In this document: in pieces, positions 1,134 through 63,876 of the stretch
How the letters are laid out: the number at the start of each line of letters is the position of its first letter
Numbering within the stretch: position 1 is the first letter of the stretch
Assembly (NCBI RefSeq): GCF_025979705.1
Contig: NZ_CP110136.1
Location: 868,001-932,000 of the forward strand
DNA length: 64,000 nt
Direction: 5' to 3'
DNA from: Hymenobacter sp. YIM 151858-1
Lineage (GTDB): Bacteria; Bacteroidota; Bacteroidia; Cytophagales; Hymenobacteraceae
Notes under the pieces: model-generated
The model's input: the letters and a program-made list of their open reading frames with translations, nothing else
Told to the model about the DNA's origin: nothing
The model's database searches: none
Program-made: the position numbers and the translations under genes

Positions 1134-1227
1134 GCAGCTAGCCCACCGTTGCGCGGCCGACAGCCCTAGGTGATGCCGGCCGAGTAGCCGGCCGGGAGCA
1201 ACGGCAGAAGCGCAGTAAGCAGCTGGG

Positions 1228-1596
1228 CTAAAATGCCTGCCCGCGGGCCCAGTCTTCGGCCGACTGCTTTTGCTGCGGGGTAAAGTGCTTGATGAGGGCC
1301 GGCGTGAGGCTGGTGCCCAACCCCACGGCGGCGTTTACCAGGGCGCTATCTTCGGTAATCACGGCCACGCGGTTAAAATCTTTGTAGTGCTTGATGTCCT
1401 GCCGGATTTCCTCCCACAGCGCCCGCAGCGAAATGCCGTCGAAATGGCGCACTTCCACGCACACGTTCACCTTGTTCCAGCGGGCAATTTTCTGCTCCAG
1501 CACGGGCACCACCTGGTCGTAATCGGCCCGCGAAATGGGCCCGTTGATGATGAACGTGAGGAGGTTGTGGTCGGGATGATCAACGGCTCGGAGCAT
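1228..1596 (-). CDS. SpoIIAA-like (STAS-related) protein
   Basis: A 122-aa cytosolic protein resembling the SpoIIAA-like family (STAS/CRAL-TRIO-like fold). Visible family features are the early NLLTFIINGPISRADYDQV strand-turn, the charged middle helix (LWEEIRQDIKHYKDFNRVAVI) and a late helix ending in W. The function of these proteins is unknown; lipid binding or stress roles have been suggested. I chose the ATG at 1596 because the domain begins right after it. The frame is open further upstream, but that part overlaps a membrane-protein gene in another frame and looks unrelated. Confidence 0.75.
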   Translation of the reverse strand: MLRAVDHPDHNLLTFIINGPISRADYDQVVPVLEQKIARWNKVNVCVEVRHFDGISLRALWEEIRQDIKHYKDFNRVAVITEDSALVNAAVGLGTSLTPALIKHFTPQQKQSAEDWARGQAF

Positions 1597-1658
1597 GGCC
1601 TTGGCAATTATTAGTACTGCATTGGTTACGCGTTGGTGGCCACAGGGTTGATTCTTCG

Positions 1659-1979
1659 CTACGAGAGGAAGTAGCGCGACCAGAACACCCAACCCCAAAG
1701 GAGCGGAAATACGAATGGGCTGACAATCAGGCAGCCGTATAGTATTGCTGGGAGCTGATCGTGGTGAGCAACCGAGGAAAAGCACATGCCTAGGTACAGC
1801 ACAGTCTGAACAGCCAAGGTTGCGCTACCTGTCGCCGCAAAAAAGGACGAATATGGGCGTTTGCGTTTAGCAGGTGTAGCACTCCTCCTTAAGAAACCGG
1901 CTAAGCAAGCTGTTGCCAACAGGCCAATAAGTCCTGGGCACAAGTAAAGCAATGCGTATTGCTGAAGCGCCGCTAGCAT
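1659..1979 (-). CDS. Small hypothetical membrane protein
   Basis: A 106-aa protein with three or four hydrophobic segments (about 8-28, 48-66 and 78-104) separated by a basic loop rich in Arg/Lys. Its ATG lies only 6 bp after the stop codon of the AddB-like gene, so it may be translationally coupled to it. Base composition is lower in GC than the neighbouring genes, which may point to a different origin. I do not recognise a family. Confidence 0.55.
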   Translation of the reverse strand: MLAALQQYALLYLCPGLIGLLATACLAGFLRRSATPAKRKRPYSSFFAATGSATLAVQTVLYLGMCFSSVAHHDQLPAILYGCLIVSPFVFPLLWGWVFWSRYFLS

Positions 1980-1985
1980 CCTTTC

Positions 1986-4900
1986 CTACCTAGCGCAGAT
2001 GCCCTTGTAGGGGCACCACTGGCACACGTTCAGGTCGTCGGTTTTGCGGATGGGCTCCTGGGGGTCGAGCATGCGGTCGACGAGGCGGGTGAGCACCTGC
2101 TGGCTGGTTTCCTCGAACAGCTGGCCGTCGGCCGTCAGAAACCCTAGGTCGGCGGAGAGCGGGGCAGGGTCGGGGCTGCGCAGGGGCACGATGGCGGCAT
2201 CGGCAGCGGCATAGCCGCGCTGGGCCAGCATCAGGCGGTAAAGCCAGAGCTGCCGCACTTTATCGGCTCCGCCGCCGGCTTCGGTTACCATGCGCTCGAT
2301 GGCCTCCTGGGGGGTGCGTTTGCTGCGGCTGCCGCCCATCAGGTTGAGCGAAGCGCCGTGCACCGAGCCGGTTTTGTAGTCGATGATGCGGCGGCGGCCG
2401 TCGGGTAGCTCGTCGATGCGGTCGGCAAAACCGATGAGGCGCACCGCCACCCGGTCGCCGGCTTTGGTTTCAACAAACACGGTGCCGTGCAGCTGTTCTT
2501 CCAGGCCAACCACTTTCAGGGGGCCATCGGCCTGGATTTGCGCAATCAGCGAATCCAAATAGCGCTGCACCAGGTGGCGGCCCACGCCGCGCAGCACGTG
2601 GTTCAGGCCTTCGTCGGGCAGTTGCTGGCGGGGGGTGGTGGTTTCGTTGCCGTCGTCGAGGGCGAGGCCACGCTCCAGCAAATCGGCCACGCGCGGCTTC
2701 CACGATTCAACGTCGTCGGCCCCGATGGCGTGGCCGGCCGTTACGTAGGGCCGCATCAGCTCCTCCAGCACGTAGTGGACGGCCGTGCCAAACACGTCGG
2801 CCCCTAGGTCTTCGGCCACGGTTTCCTGCTCCTGAAACTTGGCCACCCGCGAGAAATAAAACTGCAGCGAGCAGGTGAGAAACTGATTCAGGCCCGAGGC
2901 CGACAAGCCCCGCTCGAGCAGCCCCCGAATGGCCCCCAGCATTTCCCAATCCTTCTCGAGCACCAGGTCGCCCTCGTATTTTTGAGTTGTCAGTTGTCGG
3001 TTGCCAGTTGTCAGGTGCTGGTCGAGTGGCAACTGGTTTGCGGGGGCAGTGGCCGAGCCGCGGGCTACTTCGCCGCCTACTTCAAACCCTTCGGGCGTAA
3101 CCGTGGCCGAGGCGGTCAGGTCGAGCACTTCGAGGTTGGGGTTCTGAATCCTTAAGTCGTTTTCGATCTGCAGCAAAAAGCGGCTCCGCTCGCCGGCCTG
3201 CACGCCCTCCGAGCCCGGCAGAATATGCACCAGATCGACGCGCCGGGCCCGCTGCAACAGGCGCCAGAACTGGTGCGAAGTAGCGGCCTCGTGCTCGGCG
3301 TAGGTGGGCATGCCGTACTTGGTGAGCACGTCGTAGGGGAACAACGAGGTGTTGCGCTTGGGCGCGGGCAGGATGTTCTCGTTGCAGCTCAGGATGATGA
3401 TGTGGTCGAAATCCAGGGCGCGGGTTTCGAGCAAACCCATTACCTGCACCTGCGCGATCGGCTCGCCCGAAAAGGGCAGGCGCGTGCGGCCCATCTGCTC
3501 GTACAAAAAGCGGCGGAACGAGCGCACCGAAGGGCGCTGCTCGCGGCAGTCGAAAGCCGAATCGAGCTGACGGACGAGGGTGTAGAACAGATACAGGTAC
3601 TCGGCCTCGATGGCGGTGTGCTCCTGGCGGTACACATCGCGCAGCAAATCAATTACTTCGTAGCAGGCACGCACCACGTCGTCGCAGTTGCGCCACGGGC
3701 GGAACAGCGCCTCCACCAGCGGGTGGTGCCGGCCTAGGTCGCGCAGCTCATCTTCGGAAAGCAACACAGAATTGCGCTTCACGATTTGGCGGCAGATGTC
3801 GTCGAGCACGCCGTGGTAGGGCTGCTGCTCGGGCTGGTGGTCGAGCCATTGCTCGTAGCGGCGCAAAAAGGGGTGCGCCAGCAGCTTGGTTACCGTGAGG
3901 TGGTGGTAGCGTCGCACGCCGTAATCGGGGCCGGTTTCGCCTTCGCGCACGCCCGTGAGGTGCACCTCAAACAGCAAGTCGATGAGGTTGAACAGGGGCG
4001 TGCTGCGGAAGCTTAGGCCCATGGTTACGTTGAACTGCGGCACCTGCTCGGGCGGCAAGCCGTGCAGCACGGGCAGCAGCAAGGTTTCGTCGGGCAGCAC
4101 CACGGCCACCGAGGCGTTGGGCGCGGTTTGCAGCCCTTCGGCCACCAGCTGCCCGGCTACTTTGCCCTGCATCGAGTTGTTGGCCACGCCAATCATGCGA
4201 ATCTGGCGGGGCAACGTGCGCAGCAAATCCTCGGGGCCGGTTTCGGCAAAGCCAAAGGCCGCGGGCCCTAGGTCGAGGTACTCGGCAATGCGCCGGAAGG
4301 GCAAACCGGCCCGATTCGGCGACTCGCCATCGAGGTAAAACCGGTCGGTATCGAAGCGTACTTCGGCCTTGGCCTGCTTGAGCAGCAAACGGATGAGGTA
4401 CTGCTCGGCCCGCGACAACGTGCCCAGGCCCAGGAAGATGTGCTGCGGCACCTGCGCCGCATCGTCCTGCAGGCGCTTCTGCATGCGGTCGACGGCCAGG
4501 CGGTATGCCAGGCCAGGGTAGGCCAGGGCCTGGTCTTTGAGGCGACGGCGCAAGCGGCGGTAGACTTTCTCGAGGTCGTCCCAGAAACGGAACCACGCCG
4601 CCGTGGCCGAGGCCGGGGTGGGCGTGTCGGTTAGGTCCCAGCGCTCCAGGGCCTTGGCTTCGGAGAGGTACTCGAACAAACCGGCGGGGTCCGCGAGGTT
4701 CTGGTCGAGAGCCGAAAAGTCGTCGAGCAGCAGCCGTGACCAGCCCGTGAACAGGTCGAAATCCAGCTTGGGGTCGAGCTCCCGCAGAATGTCGAACAGC
4801 ATGAGCTGCAAGGCAATGGGCTCTTCTACCTGCACGCCGGCCAGCTCCACCATGTAGTCCTCCATGGAGGCTACCCTAGGGCTCCAGATGGCCTCGCCCT

Positions 4901-5102
4901 TGGGGGCCGCCAGCGCCAGCTCGTTTTTCAGGTACACCACCGCACGGCGGGTAGGCACTACCACCACTAGGTCCGACAGTTCGCTGCCCGAAAAGCGGCT
5001 AAGCAAATCCTGCGCGGCCTGGCGCAGAAACGGTTGGAGCGCAGCGGCATCGGGGGCGGAAGGTGAGAACGTCGAGGCGGCGGGCAATACGGAGGGCGTC
5101 AT
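1986..5102 (-). CDS. addB: AddB-like PD-(D/E)XK nuclease/inactivated helicase subunit
   Basis: About 1038 aa. It resembles the AddB/RexB subunit of the RecBCD-like DNA-end resection machine, which pairs with AddA in recombinational repair. The N-terminal part looks like an eroded helicase (VVVPTRRAVVYLKNEL replaces a Walker A). The C-terminal third has the nuclease core: GFADRIDELPDGRRRIIDYKTG supplies the Asp and the D-x-K, followed by a QLWLYRLML helix. A Cys in the FLTCSLQFYF segment and the terminal CQWCPYKGIC cysteines are arranged like the AddB iron-sulfur staple. A short repeat-derived stretch interrupts it near 2984-3033. The start is the ATG at 5102; the partner AddA-like gene is about 8.8 kb away. 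Confidence 0.88.
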   Translation of the reverse strand: MTPSVLPAASTFSPSAPDAAALQPFLRQAAQDLLSRFSGSELSDLVVVVPTRRAVVYLKNELALAAPKGEAIWSPRVASMEDYMVELAGVQVEEPIALQLMLFDILRELDPKLDFDLFTGWSRLLLDDFSALDQNLADPAGLFEYLSEAKALERWDLTDTPTPASATAAWFRFWDDLEKVYRRLRRRLKDQALAYPGLAYRLAVDRMQKRLQDDAAQVPQHIFLGLGTLSRAEQYLIRLLLKQAKAEVRFDTDRFYLDGESPNRAGLPFRRIAEYLDLGPAAFGFAETGPEDLLRTLPRQIRMIGVANNSMQGKVAGQLVAEGLQTAPNASVAVVLPDETLLLPVLHGLPPEQVPQFNVTMGLSFRSTPLFNLIDLLFEVHLTGVREGETGPDYGVRRYHHLTVTKLLAHPFLRRYEQWLDHQPEQQPYHGVLDDICRQIVKRNSVLLSEDELRDLGRHHPLVEALFRPWRNCDDVVRACYEVIDLLRDVYRQEHTAIEAEYLYLFYTLVRQLDSAFDCREQRPSVRSFRRFLYEQMGRTRLPFSGEPIAQVQVMGLLETRALDFDHIIILSCNENILPAPKRNTSLFPYDVLTKYGMPTYAEHEAATSHQFWRLLQRARRVDLVHILPGSEGVQAGERSRFLLQIENDLRIQNPNLEVLDLTASATVTPEGFEVGGEVARGSATAPANQLPLDQHLTTGNRQLTTQKYEGDLVLEKDWEMLGAIRGLLERGLSASGLNQFLTCSLQFYFSRVAKFQEQETVAEDLGADVFGTAVHYVLEELMRPYVTAGHAIGADDVESWKPRVADLLERGLALDDGNETTTPRQQLPDEGLNHVLRGVGRHLVQRYLDSLIAQIQADGPLKVVGLEEQLHGTVFVETKAGDRVAVRLIGFADRIDELPDGRRRIIDYKTGSVHGASLNLMGGSRSKRTPQEAIERMVTEAGGGADKVRQLWLYRLMLAQRGYAAADAAIVPLRSPDPAPLSADLGFLTADGQLFEETSQQVLTRLVDRMLDPQEPIRKTDDLNVCQWCPYKGICAR
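2984..3033. repeat. Short repetitive insertion inside addB
   Basis: A degenerate direct repeat of an AGTTGTC-like unit (several tandem copies, then an inverted TGGCAACTGG) sits inside the addB reading frame and codes for HLTTGNRQLTTQ-like residues. The composition and the low-complexity product differ from the surrounding protein, and the frame stays open. Confidence 0.6.
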
Positions 5103-5192
5103 GTCAGGTAAAGATACAGCCGGGGGCCAAGTGCGGCCCGGTCGGGTCGTAAGTTTGTTGGACCTGGATGGAGCGCGTTGAGCCAATACCGG

Positions 5193-5236
5193 CGGGCGTG
5201 CTGCCGCGTGCCTGCAGGGGCGAGGCAGCACGCCCG
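5193..5236. terminator. Hairpin between the T9SS gene and addB
   Basis: A perfect 13-bp GC-rich inverted repeat (5193-5205 with 5224-5236) with an 18-nt loop, upstream of addB and downstream of nothing on its own strand. It may be an attenuator or structured addB leader rather than a simple terminator. Confidence 0.35.
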
Positions 5237-5322: not shown

Positions 5323-7989
5323 CTACCGCAGCACTTCTACCCAGCCCTGGTACACCTGTTGGGTGATGGTGTGGCGCAGTTTGTAGTAGTAGGTGCCCGC
5401 TGCTGCCTCCGGGCCCCAGTCGTTGCGGTAATCGGCGGAATGATACACGCGCTGGCCCCAGCGGTTGAATACCTCCAGGATGTAGCGGCCCGGTGGCAGG
5501 TGGTGCAGCACCCACCGATCGTTGTGCTGGTCGCCGTTCGGGGTGATTACGTTTGCTAGCAGGGCGCAGTCGGTTACGGTTATTTTGCGCGAGGCGCTAA
5601 CCGTGCCGCAGGCTGTGGTTACTTGCAAGGTGTAGGCGCCGCTTTGGGTTACGCGCAACTCCGGCCCCCGCGAGCCATCCGACCACAGGTATGCCGCATC
5701 GGGGCCAAAATGCGTGGGCGCCCGCAAGGTAAGCGGCTCATCGGCGCAAATGGTGGTATCCCGACCTAGGCCGAAAGCCACGGGCGGCGGCAGTTGGCGC
5801 ACGCGCATGCGGGCCGTGGTGCGGCACCCGTTGCTGTAGCTAGCCTCCACGGCGTACCAGCCCGGCTGGGTTACGGTAAGCGTGGGCGTGGTAGCACCCG
5901 TGCTCCAGCGGTAGCCGGTGGCCCCGGCGGCCACGGCCGTGAGCTGCACACTGCCGCCAGGGCAAAACAGCGAGTCGCCGCTGATGGCTGCCACCGTAGC
6001 GCCCGCCGCTACGGTGTGCGTGCTGGTGAGCACGCAGCCGTTGGCAAAGCTCGCCTCGAGGCGGTAGGTGCCGGCCTGCGTAATCGTGAGGGTGGGGGCG
6101 GTGACGCCGGTGCTCCACCGCAAGGCGCTGGCGCCCGGGGCCACGGCCGTAAGCGTAGCGCTGGTGCCTGGGCACAGCAAAGTGGGCCCCGCAATAGCCG
6201 CCGAGGGGCCTCGTACCACCACCTGTCGGCTGGCCGAGCAAGTAGTACCGAAATAAGCCGTAACAGTGTAGTTGCCGGGCTGATTGATGCTGATGCGCGC
6301 CGTGCTGTCGCCGGTGCTCCAGTAGTAGCCGGTGGCATATGGGGCGGCTGCCACGAGTTGGGCCCGCGTGCCGGGGCAAAGCGTGGTGTCGCCTGTAATG
6401 CGTACGTCGGCAGTCAGCAGCGATACCAGCTGCTGATCGGTGGCGGTGCGGCCATCGGCAAATCTTACCTCAACCGAGTACGTGCCCTGCTGCGTGGGGC
6501 GGATGCTAGCCGTGGTAGCGCCCGTGCTCCAGCGGTAGCCGACGGCGGGCACGCTGCTGGTGGCCGTAAGCAGCAGCGGCTCCTGGCACAGCACCGAGTC
6601 GCCCCGAATTTCGGCCCGGGGCGCGCCGCTGGCAGGGGGCGTGGGGTTCAGCCGCAGGGCCCAGAAATCGAAGCCGCCCCGGCCAGGCTGCGACTTATCG
6701 GCCGAGATACCCGAATCGGACGAGCCGGCCAGGATAAATCCTAGGTCGGCGGTTTGCTGCATGCTGTATAGTTCATCGGCTCTGGTGCCGCCGTAGGTGC
6801 GGTCCCATTGTTTGCGCCCGCGGCCGTCGAGCTTTACCACCCACCAATCCTGAAACCCCATCGCGGGCTGCGTTTTGTGGCCCGATACGTTGCCCACGGA
6901 GGCACCGCCGAGCAAGTAGCCGCCGTCGGCCGTGAGGGCCAGGGCGCGCAGTTCGTCGTGGCCGCTGCTCCCAATGGTCGAGTCCCACTGCTTGGCCCCG
7001 GTGGCGTCAAGCTTCACAATCCAGTAGTCGCTGCCCCAGCCGAGCTTGGGCTCGGTACGCTCGCCCGAGCGCTTGGATTCGGAAAAGCCGGCCAGCAGGT
7101 AGCCGCCGTCGGGCGTTTGGCGCATTTTGGTGAGCACGTCGGTAAGGTCACCGCCCACGGTACGGTCCCACTGCTTGGTACCCGAGGCGCTGAGCTTCAC
7201 CACCCAATAATCGACGGAGCCGCGGATGGGCTGGCTTTTATCAGCTCCCACGCCCGATAACGAAAAGCCGCCCACGATACAGCCGCCGTCGGTGGTAACT
7301 TCCAGACAGGTAAATTCTTCGCGCTGGGCGCCGCCCAGGGTGCGGTCCCACTGCTTGCGGCCTTGCGCGTCGAGTTTCACTACCCAGTAATCCAAGGAGC
7401 CGCGGCCGGGCTCACTCTTGTCGCCCGATTGGCCCGAGTACGAGCGGCCCCCAAGCACAAAACCGCCGTCGGAAGTTTGGCGCATGGCCATAAGCACGTC
7501 GTAATCGTCGCCGCCCAGGGTACGGTCCCAGAGCTTGCGGCCCTGCGCGTCGAGCCGAATAATCCAGTAATCGTAGCCACCGCGGCCGGGCTCCGATTTG
7601 TCGCCGCTCACGCCGGCGTTGGAGGTGCCTGCCAGCACGTACCCGCCGTCGGCGGTTTGCTGCATGTCGTCGAGCGAGGCACCGCCAGCAGGCCCGAAAA
7701 CCCAGTCCCACTGTTTCTGGCCGTTTTCGTTAAGCTTGACAAGCCAAAGACCGGGGCGCGCCTGTGTTTTATCGGCCGATAAGCCGGAGGAAGAGGTACC
7801 GCCAAGCAAGTATCCCCCGTCGAGGGTTTGCTGCACCTGCTCGAGTGATTCGTGTTCGGCGCCACCCAGGGTTATGTCCCAGCGTTTGGTGGGTGGGGTG
7901 TTTTGGGCGGGTGCACTATAAGCAATAAGCAACCACAAAACCAGCAGCCCGCCTTGCCAGCGCAGCTGCAAATCAGTAAAGAAGATCAC
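5323..7989 (-). CDS. T9SS type B sorted protein: seven-repeat propeller plus Ig-like domains
   Basis: About 888 aa, secreted. A hydrophobic signal segment ends in SAPAQ. Next come seven repeats of about 60 aa, each opening with a WDRTLGG-like strand and closing with a DYWVVKLDAQGRKQ-like strand, probably forming a seven-bladed beta-propeller. Five Ig/PKD-like domains follow (each with C-P-G and W-S-T-G-A landmarks). The end is a gliding-motility-type C-terminal domain (NVITPNGDQHNDRW ... FNRWGQRVYHS), the signal for T9SS export and surface attachment. The start is uncertain: there is no ATG; GTG at 7989 is chosen, with TTG at 7971 or 8019 also possible. Ligand unknown; adhesion is an inference. 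Confidence 0.85.
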   Translation of the reverse strand: MIFFTDLQLRWQGGLLVLWLLIAYSAPAQNTPPTKRWDITLGGAEHESLEQVQQTLDGGYLLGGTSSSGLSADKTQARPGLWLVKLNENGQKQWDWVFGPAGGASLDDMQQTADGGYVLAGTSNAGVSGDKSEPGRGGYDYWIIRLDAQGRKLWDRTLGGDDYDVLMAMRQTSDGGFVLGGRSYSGQSGDKSEPGRGSLDYWVVKLDAQGRKQWDRTLGGAQREEFTCLEVTTDGGCIVGGFSLSGVGADKSQPIRGSVDYWVVKLSASGTKQWDRTVGGDLTDVLTKMRQTPDGGYLLAGFSESKRSGERTEPKLGWGSDYWIVKLDATGAKQWDSTIGSSGHDELRALALTADGGYLLGGASVGNVSGHKTQPAMGFQDWWVVKLDGRGRKQWDRTYGGTRADELYSMQQTADLGFILAGSSDSGISADKSQPGRGGFDFWALRLNPTPPASGAPRAEIRGDSVLCQEPLLLTATSSVPAVGYRWSTGATTASIRPTQQGTYSVEVRFADGRTATDQQLVSLLTADVRITGDTTLCPGTRAQLVAAAPYATGYYWSTGDSTARISINQPGNYTVTAYFGTTCSASRQVVVRGPSAAIAGPTLLCPGTSATLTAVAPGASALRWSTGVTAPTLTITQAGTYRLEASFANGCVLTSTHTVAAGATVAAISGDSLFCPGGSVQLTAVAAGATGYRWSTGATTPTLTVTQPGWYAVEASYSNGCRTTARMRVRQLPPPVAFGLGRDTTICADEPLTLRAPTHFGPDAAYLWSDGSRGPELRVTQSGAYTLQVTTACGTVSASRKITVTDCALLANVITPNGDQHNDRWVLHHLPPGRYILEVFNRWGQRVYHSADYRNDWGPEAAAGTYYYKLRHTITQQVYQGWVEVLR

Positions 7990-8037: not shown

Positions 8038-8104
8038 CTTGCCAACGGCCCCCGAAGACCTAGGGCCGCCCCCTTTTTGCGCGCTGCACCAGCAAGCTCG
8101 TCCG

Positions 8105-8644
8105 CTAGCTTAGCGGGCCAGAGGGGGCTGTTGGCAGTGGATTGTCGATGGTGTAAAACCGCACGGGCCCGCCGTAAAATTCGGCCATGTGCCGGTAGCG
8201 CAGGCCGCACTTTTCGAGCACGTGCTGCGATGCCCGGTTTTCGGGGTTGGTAACGCCCACAATTTGCTGCAGCCCTAGGTTCTCGAAGCCGTAGCGCAGC
8301 AGGGCCTTGGTCATTTCGGTAGCGTAGCCGCGGCCCCAATACTCGGGGAAGAAGCGGTAGCCCACCTCGATGTGGCCCGAGGCTTCGAGGTGCTTGAGCA
8401 CGTGCACGCCCACAAACGCGCCGGTGGTTTTCTCGATTACGGCCCAGCGCCCCAGGCCCGGAAACTTCGGGTAATTGGCTATCAGCTCCTCGAGGTAAGC
8501 ACGGGTGCCATCGTAGGTGCGCGGCGGAATGATGTAGCGCATCACCTCGGGGTCGGAGTCGAGGCGGTGCAGGGTATCGAGGTCGGCCGGGGTAAGCTGG
8601 CGCAGAGCCAGGCGCTCGGTTTCGGGCAGCGGAATGGTGGGCAA
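8105..8644 (-). CDS. GNAT-family N-acetyltransferase (copy 1)
   Basis: A 179-aa acetyl-CoA-dependent acetyltransferase of the RimJ/RimL-like type that acetylates an amine; the substrate is unknown. It opens with LPETERLALRQLTPADLDTL, has the acetyl-CoA loop region EVGYRFFPEYWGRGYATEM, and ends with NRASQHVLEKCGLRY. It is the tandem paralogue of the gene at 8992-9510 (shared ASQHVLEKCGLR, EVGYR, PxxWGRGYATEM). No ATG is suitable: TTG at 8644 aligns with the paralogue's start and lies 11 bp after the upstream stop. GTG at 8695 would overlap the upstream gene. Confidence 0.8.
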   Translation of the reverse strand: MPTIPLPETERLALRQLTPADLDTLHRLDSDPEVMRYIIPPRTYDGTRAYLEELIANYPKFPGLGRWAVIEKTTGAFVGVHVLKHLEASGHIEVGYRFFPEYWGRGYATEMTKALLRYGFENLGLQQIVGVTNPENRASQHVLEKCGLRYRHMAEFYGGPVRFYTIDNPLPTAPSGPLS

Positions 8645-8655: not shown

Positions 8656-8976
8656 CTAGAGGTGGTAGATTTCGGCACAGGTGTCGCTCAGCCACACGGC
8701 CGTGCCGCCGGGCAGCGCCCCCACGCCATCCGACTCGATGAGCAGCACGTAGTCGGCCGCTTGCTCGGGCCCTAGGTCGTCGGCGGGGCGTTGCAGCTCC
8801 TCCACCGAAGCGGGCACCGTGAGTGTATGGCCGTTGCCAAAACGCAGCTCCACCTCCAGGTTGGCATGGATGGGAAACCGCCGCAGGCTTTGCTGGTGCT
8901 GCTCCGACATGGCCAGCATGCCCAGCCCTGGCAGGTGCAAACTGTTTTCAACAACCATCAGCAATTGGCTGGGCAT
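8656..8976 (-). CDS. Hypothetical protein between two GNAT genes
   Basis: A 106-aa soluble protein, beta-rich by inspection, with no signal peptide. Landmarks are VVENSLHLPGLGMLAM near the start, a conserved-looking FPIHANLEVELRFGNG middle and GALPGGTAVWL near the end. The first part faintly recalls the domain of elongation-factor-like proteins that begins with a regulatory strand and GxG turn, but I would not assign a function. It is the middle gene of a three-gene operon, 15 bp after the upstream GNAT stop and 11 bp before the next start. Confidence 0.65.
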   Translation of the reverse strand: MPSQLLMVVENSLHLPGLGMLAMSEQHQQSLRRFPIHANLEVELRFGNGHTLTVPASVEELQRPADDLGPEQAADYVLLIESDGVGALPGGTAVWLSDTCAEIYHL

Positions 8977-9545: not shown

Positions 9546-9959
9546 TTATTTGCTCTTGGGCGCACGTACGGGGCCGCTGGTCAGGGCTTTGTCGGGTGCG
9601 GTGCGGCGCAGGGCCTTCATGTACGCTACCAGGTCGTCGAGCTGTTCGGCCGAGATTTCGTGCTGCTTAAACGAGGGCATGCGCCCTACGCCCGCAAAAA
9701 ACGCCCGGCTGCGGATGCGAAACCGCAGGGCGGCGCCGGGCAGCGGCACGTTGTTGAGGGCCGGGCCGGCACCGGCCTCGCCGCCGGGGTGGCACTTCTG
9801 GCAGTTCAGCATAAACACCTGGTGGCCCCGCTGCACTTGCTCGTTGCCGCCCACGCTGAGGCTGCCACCTAGGGGCTCGCTGCGGCGGGCGGTGGAGCAG
9901 GCGGCCAGCGCCAGCCCGAGCAGGGCCGGGGCCCATAATTTGCTTACAACTTGCTTCAT
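9546..9959 (-). CDS. c-type cytochrome lipoprotein
   Basis: 137 aa, exported. The signal sequence ends in a lipobox (LALAAC), so it is probably anchored by lipid. The haem site is CQKCH, and the methionine of GRMPSF is the likely second axial ligand, giving a class I cytochrome c. It lies 39 bp downstream of a sorbosone/glucose dehydrogenase-like gene on the same strand and is plausibly its electron acceptor. The ATG at 9959 was chosen because the signal peptide (MKQVVSKLW) begins there. Confidence 0.85.
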   Translation of the reverse strand: MKQVVSKLWAPALLGLALAACSTARRSEPLGGSLSVGGNEQVQRGHQVFMLNCQKCHPGGEAGAGPALNNVPLPGAALRFRIRSRAFFAGVGRMPSFKQHEISAEQLDDLVAYMKALRRTAPDKALTSGPVRAPKSK

Positions 9960-11607: not shown

Positions 11608-11982
11608 ATGCGCTACCGCTACTTATTTGGCACCCTCAGCCTGCTACTGGTGGTGTTTGCCGCCTTGCAGCTCAACGACCCCGACCCGCTGCTGTGGGTT
11701 ACGCTGTACCTGCTGCCGGCCGCCACCCTGGCCTGGGCCGCCCGCCGCCCGTTGCCGCGCTGGCTGCCAGGCCTGCTGGCCGTGGCCTACCTAGGGCTGG
11801 GCGCCTGGTGGTGGCCTACCCGGTTCGATGGCGTAACCGGACCGATGAACCCCGGCACCACCATAGAGGATGCGCGCGAGGCCCTGGGCTTGTTTATTTG
11901 CGCAGGCTGCCTGGCAGTGGCGGGCTGGCTCGGGCAAGCACGCCGCGGCAGCTTCGTGGCCCGTTTGGAGTCTCAGGGCTAA
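11608..11982 (+). CDS. TMEM220-like small membrane protein
   Basis: 124 aa with four likely transmembrane segments. The FAALQLNDPDPLLWVTLYLLPA stretch is the hallmark of the transmembrane family 220 helix domain. Function unknown. The ATG at 11608 is used because the upstream extension is not family-like. Its stop overlaps the start of the next gene (TAATG), so the two are translationally coupled. Confidence 0.75.
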   Translation: MRYRYLFGTLSLLLVVFAALQLNDPDPLLWVTLYLLPAATLAWAARRPLPRWLPGLLAVAYLGLGAWWWPTRFDGVTGPMNPGTTIEDAREALGLFICAGCLAVAGWLGQARRGSFVARLESQG

Positions 11983-13094
11983 TGCGGCGGTTTGTGCAAT
12001 TGGCAGCCCTGGTCCTTACGCTGGGCTGCCCGCTGCTGGCCCACGCGGCCACCACGGCGCCCGCGTGGGCCCCCGATTCGGCGAAAGTGCGGCGGGTGGG
12101 GGTGCTACCGGTGCCGGCCATCGGCTACGCGCCCGAAACGCGCGGCTACCTGGGGGCCGTGGCGTTGTTTACGTTACGCTTGTACCCGAACGATAGCCTC
12201 ACGCGCACCTCCAACGCCAAGCTCGAGGTCAATTTCACGCAAAACCGGCAACGCATTTTCAGCGGCGAGTGGACGGTGCTGTTGCGCCGCGAGCAGTACC
12301 TAAGCCAGGGGCAGGTGGCGTACCTGCGCTTTCCGGAGTATTTCTGGGGTGTGGGCAACCAGTCGCCCGAATCGGCTAAGGAACTGGTAGATAGCCGCCG
12401 CGTGGAGGTGCGCGCCACCGCCCTCCGCAAGCTGCGGCCCTACGTGTTTGCGGGCCCACGCGTGCAGTTGCAGCACCTGTACGGCGTGCGCCCGGCCGCC
12501 GGGGGCTTGCTGGAGGGCGGCCAACCCGTGGGCAGCCGCGGCGGCACCTCGAGCGGGGCGGGCTACGAGCTGGTGTACGATGGCCGTGACAACCTGCTAA
12601 ATCCCCAACGGCGCGGCTACGCCCGCCTGGCGCAAACGTTTTTTGGCGGATGGCTGGGCAGCGACTTCCGCTTTACCCGCTACGAGCTGGATGTGCGCCG
12701 GTACCAGCGCCTGGGCAAGCGGGTGGTGCTGGCCGGGCAGGTTACGGGCGTGTTCCACTCGGGCGAGCCACCCTTCCGGATGCTGGCGCTGCTCGGCTCG
12801 GAGGCCGATATGCGCGGCTACTACCGCGGCCGTTTCCGCGACCGGCAGTACGCCGCTGCGCAGGCCGAACTGCGCTTTCCGGTGTACAAGCGCCTAGGTG
12901 CGGTGGCCTTCGCTGGCGGCGGGCAGGTAGCCCGCAACCTCGGCGGCTTCGGCCCGAACGCGCTGAAACCAACCGCCGGGGCCGGCCTGCGCTTTCTGAT
13001 GGATCGGCGCGAAAACATCAACCTCCGCCTCGATTACGCCATCGGGCAGGACGGCAGCAGCGGCTTTTACATTGCTTTTGGCGAGGCGTTTTGA
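11982..13094 (+). CDS. Omp85/BamA-type outer-membrane barrel protein
   Basis: 370 aa with a signal peptide (LAALVLTLGCPLLAHA). It resembles the C-terminal barrel of surface-antigen (D15) proteins without POTRA domains: VYDGRDNLLNPQRRGYARL is the classical D15 opening motif, ARxGALLGSEADMRGYYRGRFRD-like residues correspond to the lid/L6 region (RGYYRGRFRD), and it ends with alternating strands and an aromatic terminus (FGEAF). It may insert into or assemble something in the outer membrane. It is coupled to the preceding TMEM220-like gene. Confidence 0.8.
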   Translation: MRRFVQLAALVLTLGCPLLAHAATTAPAWAPDSAKVRRVGVLPVPAIGYAPETRGYLGAVALFTLRLYPNDSLTRTSNAKLEVNFTQNRQRIFSGEWTVLLRREQYLSQGQVAYLRFPEYFWGVGNQSPESAKELVDSRRVEVRATALRKLRPYVFAGPRVQLQHLYGVRPAAGGLLEGGQPVGSRGGTSSGAGYELVYDGRDNLLNPQRRGYARLAQTFFGGWLGSDFRFTRYELDVRRYQRLGKRVVLAGQVTGVFHSGEPPFRMLALLGSEADMRGYYRGRFRDRQYAAAQAELRFPVYKRLGAVAFAGGGQVARNLGGFGPNALKPTAGAGLRFLMDRRENINLRLDYAIGQDGSSGFYIAFGEAF

Positions 13095-13290
13095 GGCTTG
13101 ACCAAGCAGCTACGCGTTGCGGCCCTAGGTGGCGCCAGCCCGTGCCGCTCCCTGGGGCCGGCGCTACCTAGGGTTTTCGCTCGTGCTGCCGCACCCGATC
13201 ATCCAAAAGCCTAATGCTCAGCCAACCTACGCGGGGCAGGTGCGTACGCCCTGCAAGCACGTTATCGTTTCAACTTAAACCGCCGGCTAC

Positions 13291-38612: not shown

Positions 38613-38627
38613 GCGGCCGCACAAAAA

Positions 38628-53120: not shown

Positions 53121-53122
53121 TC

Positions 53123-53605
53123 CTAGGTGTGTTGCACCAGCGCAGGCTCCGGCACCGGCTGCAGCGAGGGAAGTTTGATACCTGCAATTAATTGCTCCTC
53201 CAGCAGCTGAGCCCAGGTGCGCAGATACAGCACCACATCGTCGCGCATGTTGTGGCGTAGCGCATTGCGCCGCTCGAACGGAATGGCCGCCCGGATGGTC
53301 GGGTCGGAGAGGCGCTCCAGATGGGCCAGGTCAGAGCGGGTAAAGCCGGCGGCCAGCATCTCGTCGATGGTCTCGTCGATCGGCAAGCCGCTGGTAGGGC
53401 AGTAGTCGCGCAGCTGCTGGTCCCAGTCGCCGTAGCGCTGCAGCGCGCGGGCATGGATTTCGGCTTTGCTGAGCTGGGTAATGGTTTGGGCCAGGTGGCC
53501 GCAGTTGCAACTCCCCATGTGGCCCCACTGGTAGGGTGCCTGCGTTGCTAGTCGTTGCGCCGTGGTGCGGAGGGTTTCGATAACAGAAAGCGAGCAAGTA
53601 GCCAT
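53123..53605 (-). CDS. Conserved-looking hypothetical protein
   Basis: 160 aa, cytosolic by inspection. An N-terminal helix (LSVIETLRTTAQRLATQAPY) leads to WGHMGSCNCGHLAQTI, a Cys/His cluster that could bind metal, then GDWDQQLRDYCPTSGLPIDE and a long charged helix region (DLAHLERLSDPTIRAAIPFE). No family recognised. The ATG at 53605 begins the helix. It ends just inside the palindromic terminator. Confidence 0.72.
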   Translation of the reverse strand: MATCSLSVIETLRTTAQRLATQAPYQWGHMGSCNCGHLAQTITQLSKAEIHARALQRYGDWDQQLRDYCPTSGLPIDETIDEMLAAGFTRSDLAHLERLSDPTIRAAIPFERRNALRHNMRDDVVLYLRTWAQLLEEQLIAGIKLPSLQPVPEPALVQHT

Positions 53606-53783
53606 AAAGAAGTACCGAAAGGAAGAAAATTGCGGTGCTCTGGTGTCGGGCGTCCACATGAACGTACCAGCTATATAAGCAAACCGGCCTTGGTTTTGTT
53701 CGGCATCCAGCCCTCTGGTCGCTGGGTTTGCCCAATGCCCACCGTGCTTGTGGCCTGCCAAAGGCCCTAGGTGCCAAAAGCAA

Positions 53784-56853: not shown

Positions 56854-58863
56854 ATGAGGTTGTTGTTGTTGCTGGTTCTGGCTCTGGGCTGGATTGAGCT
56901 GCATGCGCAGGAAACCTCGGAGCAGCATGTGTTTCGGGATTTGCAAGCGGGCTACCGCCTGAAATACCCCCGCGGCTGGCAATTGGAGCGTAAGCCCGAC
57001 ACCAATACGGCTTCCTTTTATGCCGGCGGCGCAGGGCGGGCAGCCGAAGTGCTGGCCTCGGCGCAAGTAGCCGTTGTGAATCAGTACAACGAAGCGGCCG
57101 ACTCCGTGTGGCTCGCAATCCGGCGCCAACCGCAGGCGCAGGTGTTGCGCCTAACCGAGCAGGCCAGCGCGGCCCAACTCGAAGTACGCTACGACTACAC
57201 TTACTTGGAGGCTCCCGCGCCCGCTTTGCGCACCCACGTGGTTGGGCGCCGGGTGTGGCGCAACGGTTACGAGTACCGCCTCGAGTACCACGCGGCCATC
57301 AGCGAAGACCACGATTACCTGCCCCAGGCGCAGCAACTGCTCGAGTCGCTCAGCTTTGTGGCACCGGCGCCGCCCACCCTGCCTGTGGTTAAGCCGGTAG
57401 TGGTACGCCAACGCTGCGACGATAAAATGTACGGCATTGCCGCCCTGCGCACCCGCAACGGTATCTGGGAAGACGATTGCCGCACCATCCACGAGTTTTC
57501 GGTGGCCAACCCCTCGGCTCAGCCCACCATACATCGGTCGGTGCTGCCGTTTCAGTCGTACGCCTTGGCCAAAGGCCTCGATAATTGCCTGTACTCGGTA
57601 ACCAAGGCGCCCACCGATGCGCCCGAGTACGTGTACCGCTACAACCCCGCCACGCGCGAAGGTGCCTACACGCCGTGGCGGCTGCCGGCGCAGGGCGAGG
57701 AGAACGTATGGATTTCGGCTGCTACCGATGCCCGCGGCGACCTGTACTTCATCACCTCCGATGGCAATAAGCTGGTAAAGGTGAGCCCGGCCGATAGCTC
57801 GGTGAAGGTGGTTTGGAGCACCGACCCCGTGCGGCGAGCCGCTTACTACACGGCCATTGGGTTTTCGGGCGCCGGCACGCACGCCAACTTCTGCCTCGCC
57901 GACAACGACACCGTATACCAGGTTTACAGCACCGATGGCTCTTTGCTGAAGATTGACCTAGGCTCGCAGCAGCCCGCACCGGAGCTTGTCCGGATCGACG
58001 GCCTGCCCAAGCGCGGCGGTTACAGCGACGTGCTGATGCAGGAGGGGCCCGGAGGCGGGCGCGAGCTTTACCTGGCCGGCCCCAAAGCCCTGTACCGCGT
58101 CGATCTGGAGAAGCGGCAGGCCCAATTGGTGCGCCGCGGCGTTTACACCGATTTGGCCGGCTGCAACTTGTTCGATGTGGCCCCGCCAACGCAGGTGCCC
58201 CCCGCGGCAGTAGCGCCCGCAGTGCCCACACCAGCAGCCGCTGCACCACCTAGGGCAGCTTCCTGGCGCGGCCGCATCCTCGACGCCGTTACCCTGCAGC
58301 CGCTGCCCCAAACCCGCTACAAGCTGCGCAACAGCGTGGGCGAGGAAATCCTTGTGCCCCTAGGTGCCGACGGCTCCTTCGCTGTTGAGGTAGAGGCCGG
58401 CCGCTCCTACGTGGGGCAGGCACAACTCGGCGGCTACGGGGTGGCTAGTACTTTTTACAGCGCCAACTCGGGCTCCATCGCCGAAGATATCCTGTTGCAG
58501 CCCCTCGCCGTGGGCGTAACGCTGCCCCTCGATAACGTGCAGTTTCAGCAAGGCAAAGCCGTGCTGCTGCCATCGTCGCACGCTGCGCTCGATCAGCTGG
58601 TTGGCATCCTGACGGCCAACCCGGGCATTGCCATAGAGCTGCAAGGCCATACCGATAACGTGGGCGACCCGCAAAAAAACGTGGTGCTAAGCCAAATGCG
58701 CGCCGCCGCCGTGAAAACCTACCTGGTGCACCACGGCATTGCCTCCGGGCGCATCGCCAGTGTGGGCTTTGGCGGAGCCAGACCCAGGGCCAGCAATGCC
58801 CGCGAGGCCACCCGCAGGCTCAATCGCCGTGTGGAATTCAGGATAACCAGCGTGCAGCCATAA
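56854..58863 (+). CDS. OmpA-family protein with N-terminal propeller-like region
   Basis: 669 aa with a signal peptide (LLLLVLALGWIELHAQ). The N-terminal 150 residues include a psbP/lipid-like domain (RDLQAGYRLKYPRGWQLERK), then a region of beta-propeller-type repeats (CLADNDTVYQVYSTDGSLL), a Pro/Ala linker, a small CarboxypepD_reg-like domain, and a C-terminal OmpA domain (LPLDNVQFQQGKAVLLPSSH ... LQGHTDNVGDPQKN ... RLNRRVEFRI) that binds peptidoglycan. It probably links envelope layers. Confidence 0.88.
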   Translation: MRLLLLLVLALGWIELHAQETSEQHVFRDLQAGYRLKYPRGWQLERKPDTNTASFYAGGAGRAAEVLASAQVAVVNQYNEAADSVWLAIRRQPQAQVLRLTEQASAAQLEVRYDYTYLEAPAPALRTHVVGRRVWRNGYEYRLEYHAAISEDHDYLPQAQQLLESLSFVAPAPPTLPVVKPVVVRQRCDDKMYGIAALRTRNGIWEDDCRTIHEFSVANPSAQPTIHRSVLPFQSYALAKGLDNCLYSVTKAPTDAPEYVYRYNPATREGAYTPWRLPAQGEENVWISAATDARGDLYFITSDGNKLVKVSPADSSVKVVWSTDPVRRAAYYTAIGFSGAGTHANFCLADNDTVYQVYSTDGSLLKIDLGSQQPAPELVRIDGLPKRGGYSDVLMQEGPGGGRELYLAGPKALYRVDLEKRQAQLVRRGVYTDLAGCNLFDVAPPTQVPPAAVAPAVPTPAAAAPPRAASWRGRILDAVTLQPLPQTRYKLRNSVGEEILVPLGADGSFAVEVEAGRSYVGQAQLGGYGVASTFYSANSGSIAEDILLQPLAVGVTLPLDNVQFQQGKAVLLPSSHAALDQLVGILTANPGIAIELQGHTDNVGDPQKNVVLSQMRAAAVKTYLVHHGIASGRIASVGFGGARPRASNAREATRRLNRRVEFRITSVQP

Positions 58864-59228: not shown

Positions 59229-59653
59229 GGTACTGATGAAGGGTTAAGGTGTATCGCTCAAACTCGGCTGATGCATTGAAAAATGCGTGCCACAACAGGT
59301 TGGTTGTGCGTTGCTGTACCGCTGGCTTGCTTTATATTTATAATGTTTATTGCATGTAATGAATTGATAATAAGTTGCTTGTGTAGATAATGCAAGAGTT
59401 CAAAAAAAGTAAAATTATTTTGCCCTCCTGCTGCCCTAGGTGCGGGAGGGTGGGAAATTTGAACTAGGGACTAGTACTCAAACCCGTGGGACATTGCCCT
59501 GAGTTGGTGCTGCGAGCTACAGCATGCCTGATTGCTCCTTGACCATCGTCTCAGACTTTCAAACGCGCTGAGTTGAACTCCAAGCACCCACGCTACAAAC
59601 GGTAGCTCTCAGCCACCGACTGCCCGTTGGTCGGTTGCTGCTTGTAAAAGCAA
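59229..59653. other. Gene-free stretch
   Basis: About 425 bp, AT-rich near 59340-59430. No gene is supported; it contains the CCTAGG copy at 59435 and, at the right edge, the accA terminator. Confidence 0.5.
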
Positions 59654-59683
59654 AGCGGGCCGGCACCTAGGTGCCGGCCCGCT
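59654..59683 (-). terminator. accA terminator, palindrome centred on CCTAGG
   Basis: A 30-bp perfect palindrome with no loop, centre CCTAGG, 3' of accA; on the minus strand it is followed by TTTGCTTTTAC. Confidence 0.75.
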
Positions 59684-61034: not shown

Positions 61035-61436
61035 TGTGTTCAGGCCTTTTTCCCCGCACCAGAAAACAGGCAAGTAACCAAGCCTAGGTCGGGAGTAGGG
61101 GAACGGGCCCCCAAAGTGGGCAGTGCCCCGCGAATGCAATAAGACCTTGCGCGGCGTGGCCTCCAGTGTCATAACGAAAGAAGAACAGTCCTCGCTATCC
61201 TGGGTGGGGCTACCAAACCGAATTCTTCAGCAGCGCGGTGCTGTGCGACCAAGGCAACCTAGCCTAAAGTACGACATATGTACTTGCGTTAGGCTATCCA
61301 CCAAAACGGAAAGATGCCGTAGCCAACGTATCGGTAATTTGAAATTTTCTTGCACTGCTAATCAGGTGCTTGGGGCTGCAAACGCGTTTTTTTAGCTTGT
61401 TTTTTAGCAGTAGTGTTGGTGTAATCCAAAATTGCC
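61035..61436. other. Spacer between the tRNA-Asp copies
   Basis: About 400 bp of unique DNA between the two copies. No gene is supported; the open frame at 61123-61395 has no ATG and no recognisable features. An inverted repeat AGCCTAA/TTAGGCT lies at 61261-61295. Confidence 0.5.
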
Positions 61437-61768: not shown

Positions 61769-62020
61769 CTAAACTGCCACTTCCGATTGCTTGCAGTGCT
61801 TGCCGCCGTGTTTGCGGAAGAATCGTTCGATGCTGGCTTCCAGGTTTTCCTGCTCGGTTAAGCTGAAGCCGGTAGCCTGACCGCGTTTGGCGCGGGGCAC
61901 AGAGATGTATAGCCGGGCACCGTCGCGGGCCGGGTGGGCGTAGACGTACATGGCCGTTTGCAGCGGGAAGTCACTTACCCACCGCTCAAAACCCAACGCG
62001 AGCAAATAGGAGTCGTCCAT
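61769..62020 (-). CDS. Small hypothetical protein
   Basis: 83 aa (MDDSYLLALGFERWVSDFPL ... LYISVPRAKRGQATGFSLTE ... IERFFRKHGGKHCKQSEVAV), probably a small alpha/beta protein, no signal peptide. The composition is consistent with a real gene; I recognise no family. The ATG at 62020 is favoured over more upstream starts. A hairpin lies about 90 bp downstream. Confidence 0.55.
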   Translation of the reverse strand: MDDSYLLALGFERWVSDFPLQTAMYVYAHPARDGARLYISVPRAKRGQATGFSLTEQENLEASIERFFRKHGGKHCKQSEVAV

Positions 62021-62213
62021 ATGTGGCACCCAAAGTAATAAGTACACGCTGTAGTGTAAAATAACGGAGCAATCGGGCGGGTTGATATCACATGATAATG
62101 TGGTGTTGGAGGGCTAAAGCCATATTTTATTTGCTTGATCCGACAAACGGCGGTTGGCGCACCAGAGAAACATTGAGTTGGGGTAGCTGCCGGGGTTTGC
62201 GCATCTTGCGCCC

Positions 62214-63062
62214 ATGAACGTCTACACCCTCGATACTGGCTTATTCAAACTGGATGGCGGCGCCATGTTTGGCGTAGTACCCAAATCGTTGTGGAGCCGG
62301 CAGTACCCCGCCGACGAAAACAATATGTGCACCTGGGCCATGCGCTGCCTGTTGGTGCAGGATGGCAACCGGCTGCTCCTCGTCGACAACGGCATTGGGA
62401 ATAAGCAGGACGAGAAGTTCAAAGGGCATTTTTACCTCCACGGCGACGCTACCCTCGAAGGCTCGCTGCGGAAGCTGGGGTTCACCTCGTCCGACGTTAC
62501 CGATGTGCTGCTTACGCACCTGCACTTCGACCACTGCGGCGGCTCGGTGGTGCGTACCCCCGACGACAAACTGCAGCTGGCCTTCCCGAACGCCACTTAT
62601 TGGTCGAACGAAGCGCATTGGCAATGGGCCGTGCAGCCCAACGCGCGCGAAAAAGCCTCCTTTCTGAAAGAGAATATCCTGCCGATTCAGGAAAGCGGGC
62701 ACCTGCGCTTTATCGATCAGGCGGCTGGGGTTCCCGAAGAGTTGCCCATGCTGCGCGAGATTGTGTTTGCCGATGGGCATACCGAAAAGATGATGGTGCC
62801 GGTGCTGGACTACAAAGGGCGTAAGCTGGCATTTATGGCTGATTTGCTGCCCTCGACCGCACACCTGCCCATGCCGTGGGTGATGAGCTACGACGTGCGC
62901 CCGCTGCAAACGCTGGTGGAAAAAGAAGCCACCTTGCAGCGCGCCGCCGACGAGCAGTGGGTGCTGATATTGGAACACGACGCCCACACCGAAGCCTGCA
63001 CCGTACAGCAAACCGACCGCGGCGTGCGGCTGAGCGAAACGCTGCGCATCGCCGATCTGTAA
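62214..63062 (+). CDS. Metallo-beta-lactamase-fold hydrolase
   Basis: 282-aa MBL-fold enzyme. LLLVDNGIGNKQDEKFKGHF opens the fold; the metal site is THLHFDHCGG; further ligands include the Asp of MADLLPSTAHL and the His of LILEHDAHTEAC. Relatives include quorum-quenching lactonases and other hydrolases; the substrate cannot be told. No signal peptide. Separated by 16 bp from the patatin gene, so probably co-transcribed with it. Confidence 0.88.
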   Translation: MNVYTLDTGLFKLDGGAMFGVVPKSLWSRQYPADENNMCTWAMRCLLVQDGNRLLLVDNGIGNKQDEKFKGHFYLHGDATLEGSLRKLGFTSSDVTDVLLTHLHFDHCGGSVVRTPDDKLQLAFPNATYWSNEAHWQWAVQPNAREKASFLKENILPIQESGHLRFIDQAAGVPEELPMLREIVFADGHTEKMMVPVLDYKGRKLAFMADLLPSTAHLPMPWVMSYDVRPLQTLVEKEATLQRAADEQWVLILEHDAHTEACTVQQTDRGVRLSETLRIADL

Positions 63063-63078
63063 CCCAACGAACACGGAT

Positions 63079-63876
63079 TTGTCGACGCGAAAGATAGGAC
63101 TGGCCTTATCGGGAGGAGCGGCCCGCGGCATTGCCCACCTGGGTATGCTGCAAGCCCTGAGCGAGCTGCAACTGCCCATTGGGGCCATGTCGGGGGTGAG
63201 TTCGGGCGGGTTGGCAGCGGTGTTTTTTGCCGCTGGCATTCCGCCGCGCGAGGTGTTGCGCCTGCTGTCCGATACCCGCTTTTTGCGCCTGGTGCGTCCG
63301 GCTTACAAGCGCGGGCTGGTAAACCTGGGCTTGCTCGAGAAGCTGTTTGCTGCTCACCTGCCCGGCAACCAAACCTTTGCCGACCTAGGGATGCCCGTAA
63401 CCTTAGCGGCAACCGATTTGAGCAGCGGCAAAACCGTATTTTTCAACGAAGGCCCGCTGGTGCCGCCGCTGTTGGCCACAGGAGCGGTGCCCGTGCTATG
63501 CCAACCCATTGAGTACCTAGGGCACGTGCTGGTGGATGGGGGCTTGCTCAACAACCTGCCCATCGAGCCGCTGCAGCACCGGCCGGAGCTGGCCTTGGTA
63601 GGCGCGCACACCAACATTGTAAACACCGAGGCACCCATCAGCACCATCCGGCACGTGGCCGAGCGCACCTTTATGCTGGCCATCGGCACCAACACGGCGC
63701 CCCGGCTTAAGCAGTGCGAGCTGGTGCTGCAGCCACCGGAGCTCCGCCGGTTCAGGGTTACGGATTTGCGCCATGCCACCGAGCTGTATGCCATCGGTTA
63801 CGAATACACCCTGAGCCAGGCCGCCGAACTGGAGGCCTTGCTCAGCAAACCCGCGCCCGAGCCAGATTTTGGCTAG
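63079..63876 (+). CDS. Patatin-like phospholipase
   Basis: 265-aa lipid acyl hydrolase. LALSGGAARGIAHLGML gives the oxyanion loop, GVSSGG the nucleophile Ser (GxSxG), and VLVDGGLLNNLP the catalytic Asp. No signal peptide is obvious. The start codon is TTG. It follows the MBL-hydrolase gene closely. Confidence 0.92.
   Translation: MSTRKIGLALSGGAARGIAHLGMLQALSELQLPIGAMSGVSSGGLAAVFFAAGIPPREVLRLLSDTRFLRLVRPAYKRGLVNLGLLEKLFAAHLPGNQTFADLGMPVTLAATDLSSGKTVFFNEGPLVPPLLATGAVPVLCQPIEYLGHVLVDGGLLNNLPIEPLQHRPELALVGAHTNIVNTEAPISTIRHVAERTFMLAIGTNTAPRLKQCELVLQPPELRRFRVTDLRHATELYAIGYEYTLSQAAELEALLSKPAPEPDFG

Follow-up and report, generated by a model that had tools for sequence, protein, structure and literature searches.

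A directional octamer in thousands of chromosomal copies in some soil bacteria of the genus Hymenobacter

Several kinds of short words iterated along bacterial chromosomes have been described, among them the uptake words through which Neisseria and Haemophilus identify DNA of their own. Chi, read by RecBCD or AddAB, is an oriented chromosomal word of about 8 bases that varies between taxa, and the uptake signal sequence (USS) of Pasteurellaceae consists of a 9-base core with flanking AT tracts. The DNA uptake sequence (DUS) of Neisseriaceae reaches up to 5,918 copies in 2.4 Mb and occurs as related words, or dialects, in related species (passages of PMC3630211); an atypical distribution in mobile elements is described in part of PMC7371117. 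Excerpts of PMC7811141 describe a strong uptake preference for marked self-DNA in two proteobacterial families, as well as modelling in which biased uptake by itself can write such words. In Bacteroidota, sections of PMC7965970 report that Riemerella columbina prefers its own DNA in transformation, and propose as candidate uptake words A-rich k-mers of Riemerella and Flavobacterium that are unlike the words considered below. The highly iterated palindrome HIP1 of cyanobacteria and its alternates occur at about one site per kb, with other words in some relatives (passages of PMC4390886). Here we analyze the hexamer CCTAGG and its flanking bases in a 64,000-base stretch (the window) of Hymenobacter sp. 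YIM 151858-1 (contig NZ_CP110136.1, positions 868,001 to 932,000), for which an initial annotation had proposed an HIP1-like palindrome.

The word is a short directional octamer that has thousands of copies on the chromosome and hardly occurs on plasmid-like DNA in some soil bacteria. The window contains 69 copies of CCTAGG, exactly the number given in the initial annotation, where base composition alone would predict 21 and a first-order Markov chain 13.5. The maximal-order model expects 55 copies, but it uses CCTAG and CTAGG, which are themselves mostly pieces of the site. Most CTAG sites in the window are of this form (69/109), again as annotated. The whole genome (G000; one contig of 4.36 Mb and two smaller ones of 158 and 101 kb) has 5,325 copies vs. 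75 of the reversed control GGATCC, which may itself be under negative selection, composition and codon shuffles being the fairer controls. All 20 chromosome samples contain sites (17–34 per 20 kb). Two other genomes of the genus, G005 and G007, have 5,678 and 6,212 copies, whereas the remaining five of the eight analyzed, termed non-carriers, have 123–249 each. The strongest iterated 8-mer has a z-score of 23–32 in the three carriers and 7–9 in the non-carriers, none of the latter being outstanding. In an M1 peptidase tree with 38 rows, from which G006 is absent, the carriers group as one clade (support 100/98); a peptidase of the window is 81–84% identical in amino acids to those of the nearest named relatives, Hymenobacter gummosus, H. 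sp. 15J16-1T3B, H. edaphi, and H. busanensis. The octamer ACCTAGGG occurs 1,555 times on the forward and 1,551 times on the reverse strand of G000, vs. 2–10 per strand in non-carriers. One-off forms of ACCTAGGG (first seven positions) reach 483 per Mb (318 in non-carriers), compared with 711 for ACCTAGGG and 323 for ACCTAGGC; for the DUS of K. oralis, one-mismatch copies add 21% (part of PMC3630211). Several other hexamers are strongly depleted in the window relative to composition, namely GGATCC (1 copy), GACGTC (1), TCGCGA (3), AGATCT (0), and TCTAGA (0), and the genome-wide rarity of GGATCC looks as if a restriction system selects against it.

The unit is the oriented octamer ACCTAGG[G>C>A] and not a palindrome. 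Flanks were read in a 464-kb sample comprising the window and 20 evenly spaced 20-kb stretches (571 sites), which divide into ACCTAGGG (330), ACCTAGGC (150), ACCTAGGA (42), ACCTAGGT (11), and sites with no A flank (38). Exactly one flank is A in 522 sites and both are in 11, whereas the 48% share of A among flanks predicts about 130 double-A sites (85.3 coding and 44.3 intergenic). Intergenic sites alone include only 8 with double A and 12 with none (48.3 expected); since they show the same exclusivity, codons are not its cause. This exclusivity, in all sites and between genes, rules out the palindromic unit of the initial annotation, although the usual flanks given there were recovered (ACCTAGGG or CCCTAGGT at 45 of 69 window sites). 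Beyond one or two bases the flanks carry little signal (the oriented logo omitted 51 of the 571 sites). The loop-less terminator annotated around one site is indeed a perfect palindrome (Table 1).

With gene calls from a heuristic made for this analysis, sites are 3.5-fold denser between genes (3.30 per kb) than within them (0.95 per kb), confirming their annotated presence in both; gaps between convergent, tandem, and divergent genes have 4.05, 2.56, and 1.89 sites per kb, respectively. Most coding sites of the 464-kb sample (344/386, 89%) are in the frame NNC-CTA-GGN encoding Leu-Gly, as had been described, and such a preference would suit a by-product of codon usage or base composition. This explanation is, in effect, refuted: coding ACCTAGGG numbers 214 in 133,634 codons vs. 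2.6 over 30 synonymous shuffles (about 80-fold), the density is greater outside genes, and close relatives lack the word, having 7 CCTAGG in 79,666 codons vs. 8.2 expected by synonymous shuffling. The idea that the CTA codon is nearly confined to the site did not survive counting, as 337 of 870 CTA codons (39%) lie inside it, compared with 7 of 282 in non-carrier relatives.

Homologous positions in non-carriers, taken from gap-free coding alignments, give a view of how the sites arose. Over 112 coding-site comparisons, 0, 1, 2, 3, 4, and 5 hexamer mismatches were found in 1, 22, 37, 46, 5, and 1 cases (mean 2.3 of 6), whereas control Leu-Gly pairs have 0–4 mismatches in 70, 104, 64, 21, and 4 cases. 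Differences are spread over every position of the octamer (21–57% per position in 123 comparisons of oriented sites), an individual case being the site at 31005 (Table 1), and amino-acid identity is 0.692 for site codons and 0.695 for flanks. These alignments show that sites were assembled by several base changes without extra protein change. Differences at multiple positions are not explained by a single-base repair bias, and a bias of the Vsr kind is therefore rejected. Between carriers, 37 of 49 aligned window sites are retained in G005 (44% for all hexamers with four GC bases) and 34 of 53 in G007 (40%), sites without an aligned relative (20 and 16 of 69, respectively) being dropped. The comparison of relatives suggested in the initial annotation thus yielded high retention, a property that is not unique to this hexamer.

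Almost all copies in G000 (5,303/5,325) are outside its two small contigs, of which C2 contains 16 in 158.2 kb and C3 contains 6 in the 100.0 of 100.9 kb counted, the density of the large contig being about 1.22 per kb. Small plasmid-like contigs of the carriers have 0–0.16 sites per kb each, compared with 1.05–1.50 for the large contigs of G005 and G007 (40 of 42 kb of G005 C2, G005 C3 and C4 whole, G007 C4 whole, and 80 of 259 kb of G007 C5 were covered; one G007 contig reading N was excluded). In G007 C2 (89 kb), which is perhaps a piece of chromosome, the initial 20 kb contains 25 copies. A 4-kb stretch common to G000 C2 and G007 C5 (85% identity) has no site in either. On the large contigs, all six above-cut-off methylase hits examined (five from G000 and one from G005) lie inside site-free gaps, in descending order of 18.9, 18.1, 16.7, 9.3, 7.7, and 5.9 kb; the surrounding 20-kb stretches have, from L270 to L275, 18, 1, 6, 1, 13, and 3 sites, and two stretches around below-cut-off PF07669 hits have 25 and 28. 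We interpret the small contigs as plasmids and the site-free gaps as islands.

These observations bear on the HIP1-like reading, according to which a DNA methyltransferase and linked mismatch repair write the word. CCTAGG is a known restriction-methylase target (AvrII), and the density of roughly one site per kb is that of HIP genomes. However, the word is asymmetric and nearly missing from the small contigs, its sites arose through changes at every position, and of the five methylase families searched (PF00145, PF01555, PF02384, PF02086, and PF07669; other methylase families were not searched) none has a hit above the cut-off in all three carriers, the six chromosomal hits examined being in site-free gaps. 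A methylase-driven HIP is accordingly very improbable. The initial annotation was right that one word is iterated throughout the genome, both inside and between genes, whereas its terms "palindrome" and "HIP1-like" are not well supported.

More can be said for a Chi-like recombination signal that an AddAB-type helicase-nuclease would read: the word is a chromosomal oriented 8-mer, and the window seems to encode both a nuclease protein of the PD-(D/E)XK type and a UvrD helicase containing DUF559 (Table 1). The DUF559 domain, which we take to have a Vsr-like fold, sits between two helicase parts, and the nuclease protein is possibly the partner of this helicase. Chi orientation should follow replication, but site orientation shows no polarity with the sign of GC skew (96:109 and 65:70, p 0.90), a coarse proxy used without locating the origin. 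The AddA-like protein was found in all seven relatives. Among non-carriers, the AddB-like protein is kept in G006 (84%, 1,053 aa aligned) and in G002 (87%, 624 aa aligned); G001 shows a match of 176 aa, and the examined blocks of G004 and G003 show none. Even so, non-carriers have no outstanding 8-mer; divergence of AddB does not track presence of the word. The enrichment of the octamer also far exceeds that known for Chi, and this explanation is unlikely. Spacing of the sites is random (coefficient of variation (CV) 0.98), and even spacing, as for a distance-dependent repair signal, was not seen.

Other words are iterated elsewhere in the family. Among 15 Pontibacter loci (about 12–22 kb), seven have AGGTATA(G) (L062, L066, L068, L070–L072, and L074), five AAGTATA(A) (L060, L061, L063, L078, and L100), and one AACTATA(G) (L067), while the loci of P. 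ummariensis (L065, a single locus of 22 kb) and P. qinzhouensis (L073) have no outstanding word; P. mangrovi is among the species that have one. These heptamers occur about 2–3 times per kb. The corresponding octamers AGGTATAG, AAGTATAA, and AACTATAG differ from ACCTAGGG; in genes the three words are 7- to 60-fold above synonymous shuffles, and their density is greater between genes. Over 635 comparisons of AGGTATA sites in 30 species pairs (L068 and L137 being excluded from all dialect alignments), the AAGTATA of the other clade was found in 113 (17.8%), whereas control heptamers undergo this change in 5.6% of cases. The words are co-located by position at 121 of 626 sites, always in identical orientation (121/121), and AGGTATAG is opposite AAGTATAA 47 times and opposite itself 6 times, of 272. 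With L066 as the reference, 4 of 13 distinct octamer sites are switched and 1 is retained in one species or more. H. cavernae and H. crusticola have the partly palindromic words ACCTAG[CG]T and AGCTAGG, and weaker iterated words are present in an Adhaeribacter-like pair, G009, and H. fodinae. Most words can be read as the layout ANNTANNN, into which AT-rich ones easily fall by chance and into which the H. fodinae word does not fit. The shared ANNTA layout is the sole link that would suggest kinship of the Pontibacter words with that of Hymenobacter.

Replacement of words at homologous positions would also suit binding sites of a chromosome-organizing or segregation protein selected at each site, as would the near confinement of the word to large contigs in three species, its conservation in carriers, and the absence of strand polarity. 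Selection would then have to act on each of about 5,300 randomly spaced sites, and stretches of 16–19 kb lack them although all 20 chromosome samples contain some. Taken together, this is a rather unlikely explanation.

The word resembles uptake sequences in its density, its orientation, its balance over the strands, its preference for gaps, and its scarcity in presumably acquired DNA, and perhaps also in having dialects. Our analysis leads us to suggest, with evenly balanced confidence, that ACCTAGG[G>C>A] marks the inherited chromosome as self in the manner of a DUS and that biased uptake or recombination maintains it. Some DNA-binding step, either when free DNA is taken up or when it recombines into the chromosome, would prefer word-bearing DNA, and copies would accumulate by molecular drive, as with DUS in Neisseriaceae and USS in Pasteurellaceae. 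Plasmids and fresh islands would remain without the word, since no homologous DNA of conspecifics replaces them. Both the uptake step and its receptor are postulated here, and, provided that this reading is correct, lack of the pilus ATPase would imply a different kind of uptake system.

Several results weigh against the uptake-type reading. No T2SSE (PilB/PilT/GspE-type) ATPase was found at E 0.001 in the eight genus genomes (other pilus genes were not searched), and the type IV pilus machine used by known DUS and USS systems is therefore probably missing from the genus; elsewhere in the family, a full match occurs in a single genome, G013. ComEC, present in 37 of 38 genomes, is uninformative as a marker for the word. 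Among the open-access papers listed for the topic, we recognized no report of DNA uptake in Hymenobacter or Pontibacter. Other hexamers are equally conserved among carriers, the rank of CCTAGG being 5th among 399 for G005 and 15th among 430 for G007. The islands and small contigs could be of recent origin, in which case any slow process would leave the word scarce in them. The random spacing differs from that of USS, described as relatively even (part of PMC7811141). The dialect counts pool related species pairs, and pooled AGGTATA retention (80/635) lies at the control rate of 13.0%; among 29 distinct aligned sites of the reference L066, 10 are switched to the second word in one species or more, while the first word is retained at 9. 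Retention exceeds switching in two of five single species pairs, and towards P. populi it is 18 vs. 8 of 163. AACTATA is most often followed by GTT, forming a palindrome, so that asymmetry is not clear for every word, and H. cavernae and H. crusticola show palindromic as well as other forms; the 3–4 window sites that align to these two species are too few, and none is opposite CTAG.

More tentatively, and with some doubt, we propose that Hymenobacteraceae could have an undescribed, type IV pilus-independent uptake or recombination system that reads oriented octamers with the layout ANNTANNN. Its specificity would have shifted repeatedly (ACCTAGGG, AGGTATAG, AAGTATAA, AACTATAG, and perhaps others), giving clade-specific self-marks and a barrier to foreign DNA. 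If true, a mark with dialects in Bacteroidota lacking the pilus ATPase would mean either that uptake specificity was reached a second time, independently, or that some other process can fill a chromosome with thousands of copies of a single word. Carriers and non-carriers within one genus, together with the words of Pontibacter switched at shared positions, form a natural experiment in which to look for the reader protein. No iterated word of Hymenobacteraceae was recognized among the open-access papers listed for the topic.

Additional iterated strings were recorded in the surveyed loci. In H. fodinae (L029), TAGGCCA(CT) is iterated, the heptamer occurring 32 times in 22 kb vs. 4.5 expected, with a layout unlike the others; TATATAA and AAATATT/AATATTG are iterated in L132 and L211 (G009) and in L089 and L145 (Adhaeribacter rhizoryzae, G023), 4- to 7-fold over synonymous shuffles. 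Two Hymenobacter loci (L041 and L046) have iterated AAAGCCCCCCA-like strings, possibly terminators, and GGGGCCCC or CCAGGGCC strings are numerous in H. nivis (L086) and a Hymenobacter metagenome-assembled genome (L080). Beyond the family, one stretch from each of 15 other genomes of the order was scored, and two of these stretches (G037 and G040) exceeded a z-score of 10; three more were judged by raw 8-mer counts only. The G040 stretch (L196, another family of the order) has ATTTCCTG and ACAGGAAC strings in excess (16 vs. 1.4 in one 20-kb stretch), and that of G037 (L193) has about 20 copies of the direct-repeat words GCGGGGAC and CGCAGTCC clustered in 20 kb, resembling clustered regularly interspaced short palindromic repeats. 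G048, which belongs to a different family of the order, contains 807 copies of CCTAGG vs. 62 of the reversed control, with a z-score of 6 and no outstanding word in one 20-kb stretch. In the window, two tRNA-Asp genes (GTC; 60914–60988 and 61484–61558, + strand) lie 0.5 kb apart. For the open reading frame preceding them (59694–60923), the blocks of the relatives, ending near window position 62,000, contain no match.

Table 1. CCTAGG sites and related features of the window. A dot in the strand column marks sites with no A flank or with A on both sides.
Feature	Position	Strand	Remark
site	1165..1170	-	reads CCCTAGGT on +
site	1789..1794	-	
site	2143..2148	-	conserved in G005, G007
site	2803..2808	-	
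site	3733..3738	-	conserved in G005, G007
site	4267..4272	-	conserved in G005, G007
site	4875..4880	.	no A flank
site	5765..5770	+	
site	6740..6745	-	
site	8059..8064	+	
site	8274..8279	-	
site	8771..8776	-	
site	9868..9873	+	
site	11790..11795	+	
site	12893..12898	-	
site	13124..13129	-	
site	13167..13172	+	
site	13389..13394	-	
site	14697..14702	-	
site	14838..14843	+	
site	16101..16106	-	
site	17886..17891	+	GCCCAGGG in 4/5 non-carriers at this position
site	19001..19006	+	
site	19290..19295	+	
site	19682..19687	-	CCTAGG also in non-carrier G004
site	20117..20122	-	
site	22277..22282	-	
site	23778..23783	-	
site	23936..23941	+	
site	24464..24469	-	
site	25041..25046	.	A on both sides, rare form
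site	25208..25213	-	
site	25607..25612	+	
site	25934..25939	+	
site	29279..29284	+	
site	29605..29610	+	
site	30206..30211	+	
site	31005..31010	+	non-carriers differ from octamer: four at four bases, fifth at three
site	32959..32964	+	
site	33839..33844	+	
site	36460..36465	+	
site	37296..37301	+	
site	38067..38072	+	
site	38608..38613	+	
site	40928..40933	+	
site	40979..40984	-	
site	41627..41632	.	no A flank
site	41872..41877	+	
site	42633..42638	-	
site	43315..43320	-	
site	43473..43478	-	
site	44295..44300	+	
site	46105..46110	-	
site	46138..46143	+	
site	49153..49158	+	
site	49655..49660	-	
site	50354..50359	+	
site	50822..50827	+	
site	51169..51174	+	
site	53122..53127	-	
site	53766..53771	-	
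site	57957..57962	+	
site	58249..58254	+	
site	58359..58364	-	
site	59435..59440	-	
perfect 30-base palindrome, terminator-like	59654..59683	.	centre is the site at 59666, A on both sides
site	61083..61088	-	
site	63384..63389	+	
site	63516..63521	+	
PD-(D/E)XK nuclease protein, putatively AddB-like	1986..5231	-	from length and domain; bears on the Chi-like explanation only
UvrD helicase with inserted DUF559, putatively AddA-like	14015..17974	-	bears on the Chi-like explanation only

Among the described systems, DUS and USS come closest, the Hymenobacter word being likewise oriented, present about once per kb, equally frequent on both strands, denser in gaps, and scarce in plasmid-like contigs. 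With DUS it shares thousands of copies, the atypical distribution in putatively mobile DNA, and perhaps related words in related species; it differs in belonging to Bacteroidota, in the word itself, and in a genus where the T2SSE-type pilus ATPase was not found. The likeness to USS lies in the spacing of about 1 kb and the scarcity in coding and newly acquired DNA (passages of PMC7811141), whereas its flanks carry little signal beyond one or two bases and its sites are randomly rather than evenly placed. HIP1 resembles it in density and in the replacement by other words in some relatives, but is a palindrome tied to methyltransferases, in contrast to an asymmetric word with no searched methylase family common to its carriers. 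Chi, finally, is similar in length and orientation, while the Hymenobacter word has no strand polarity and a much stronger enrichment.

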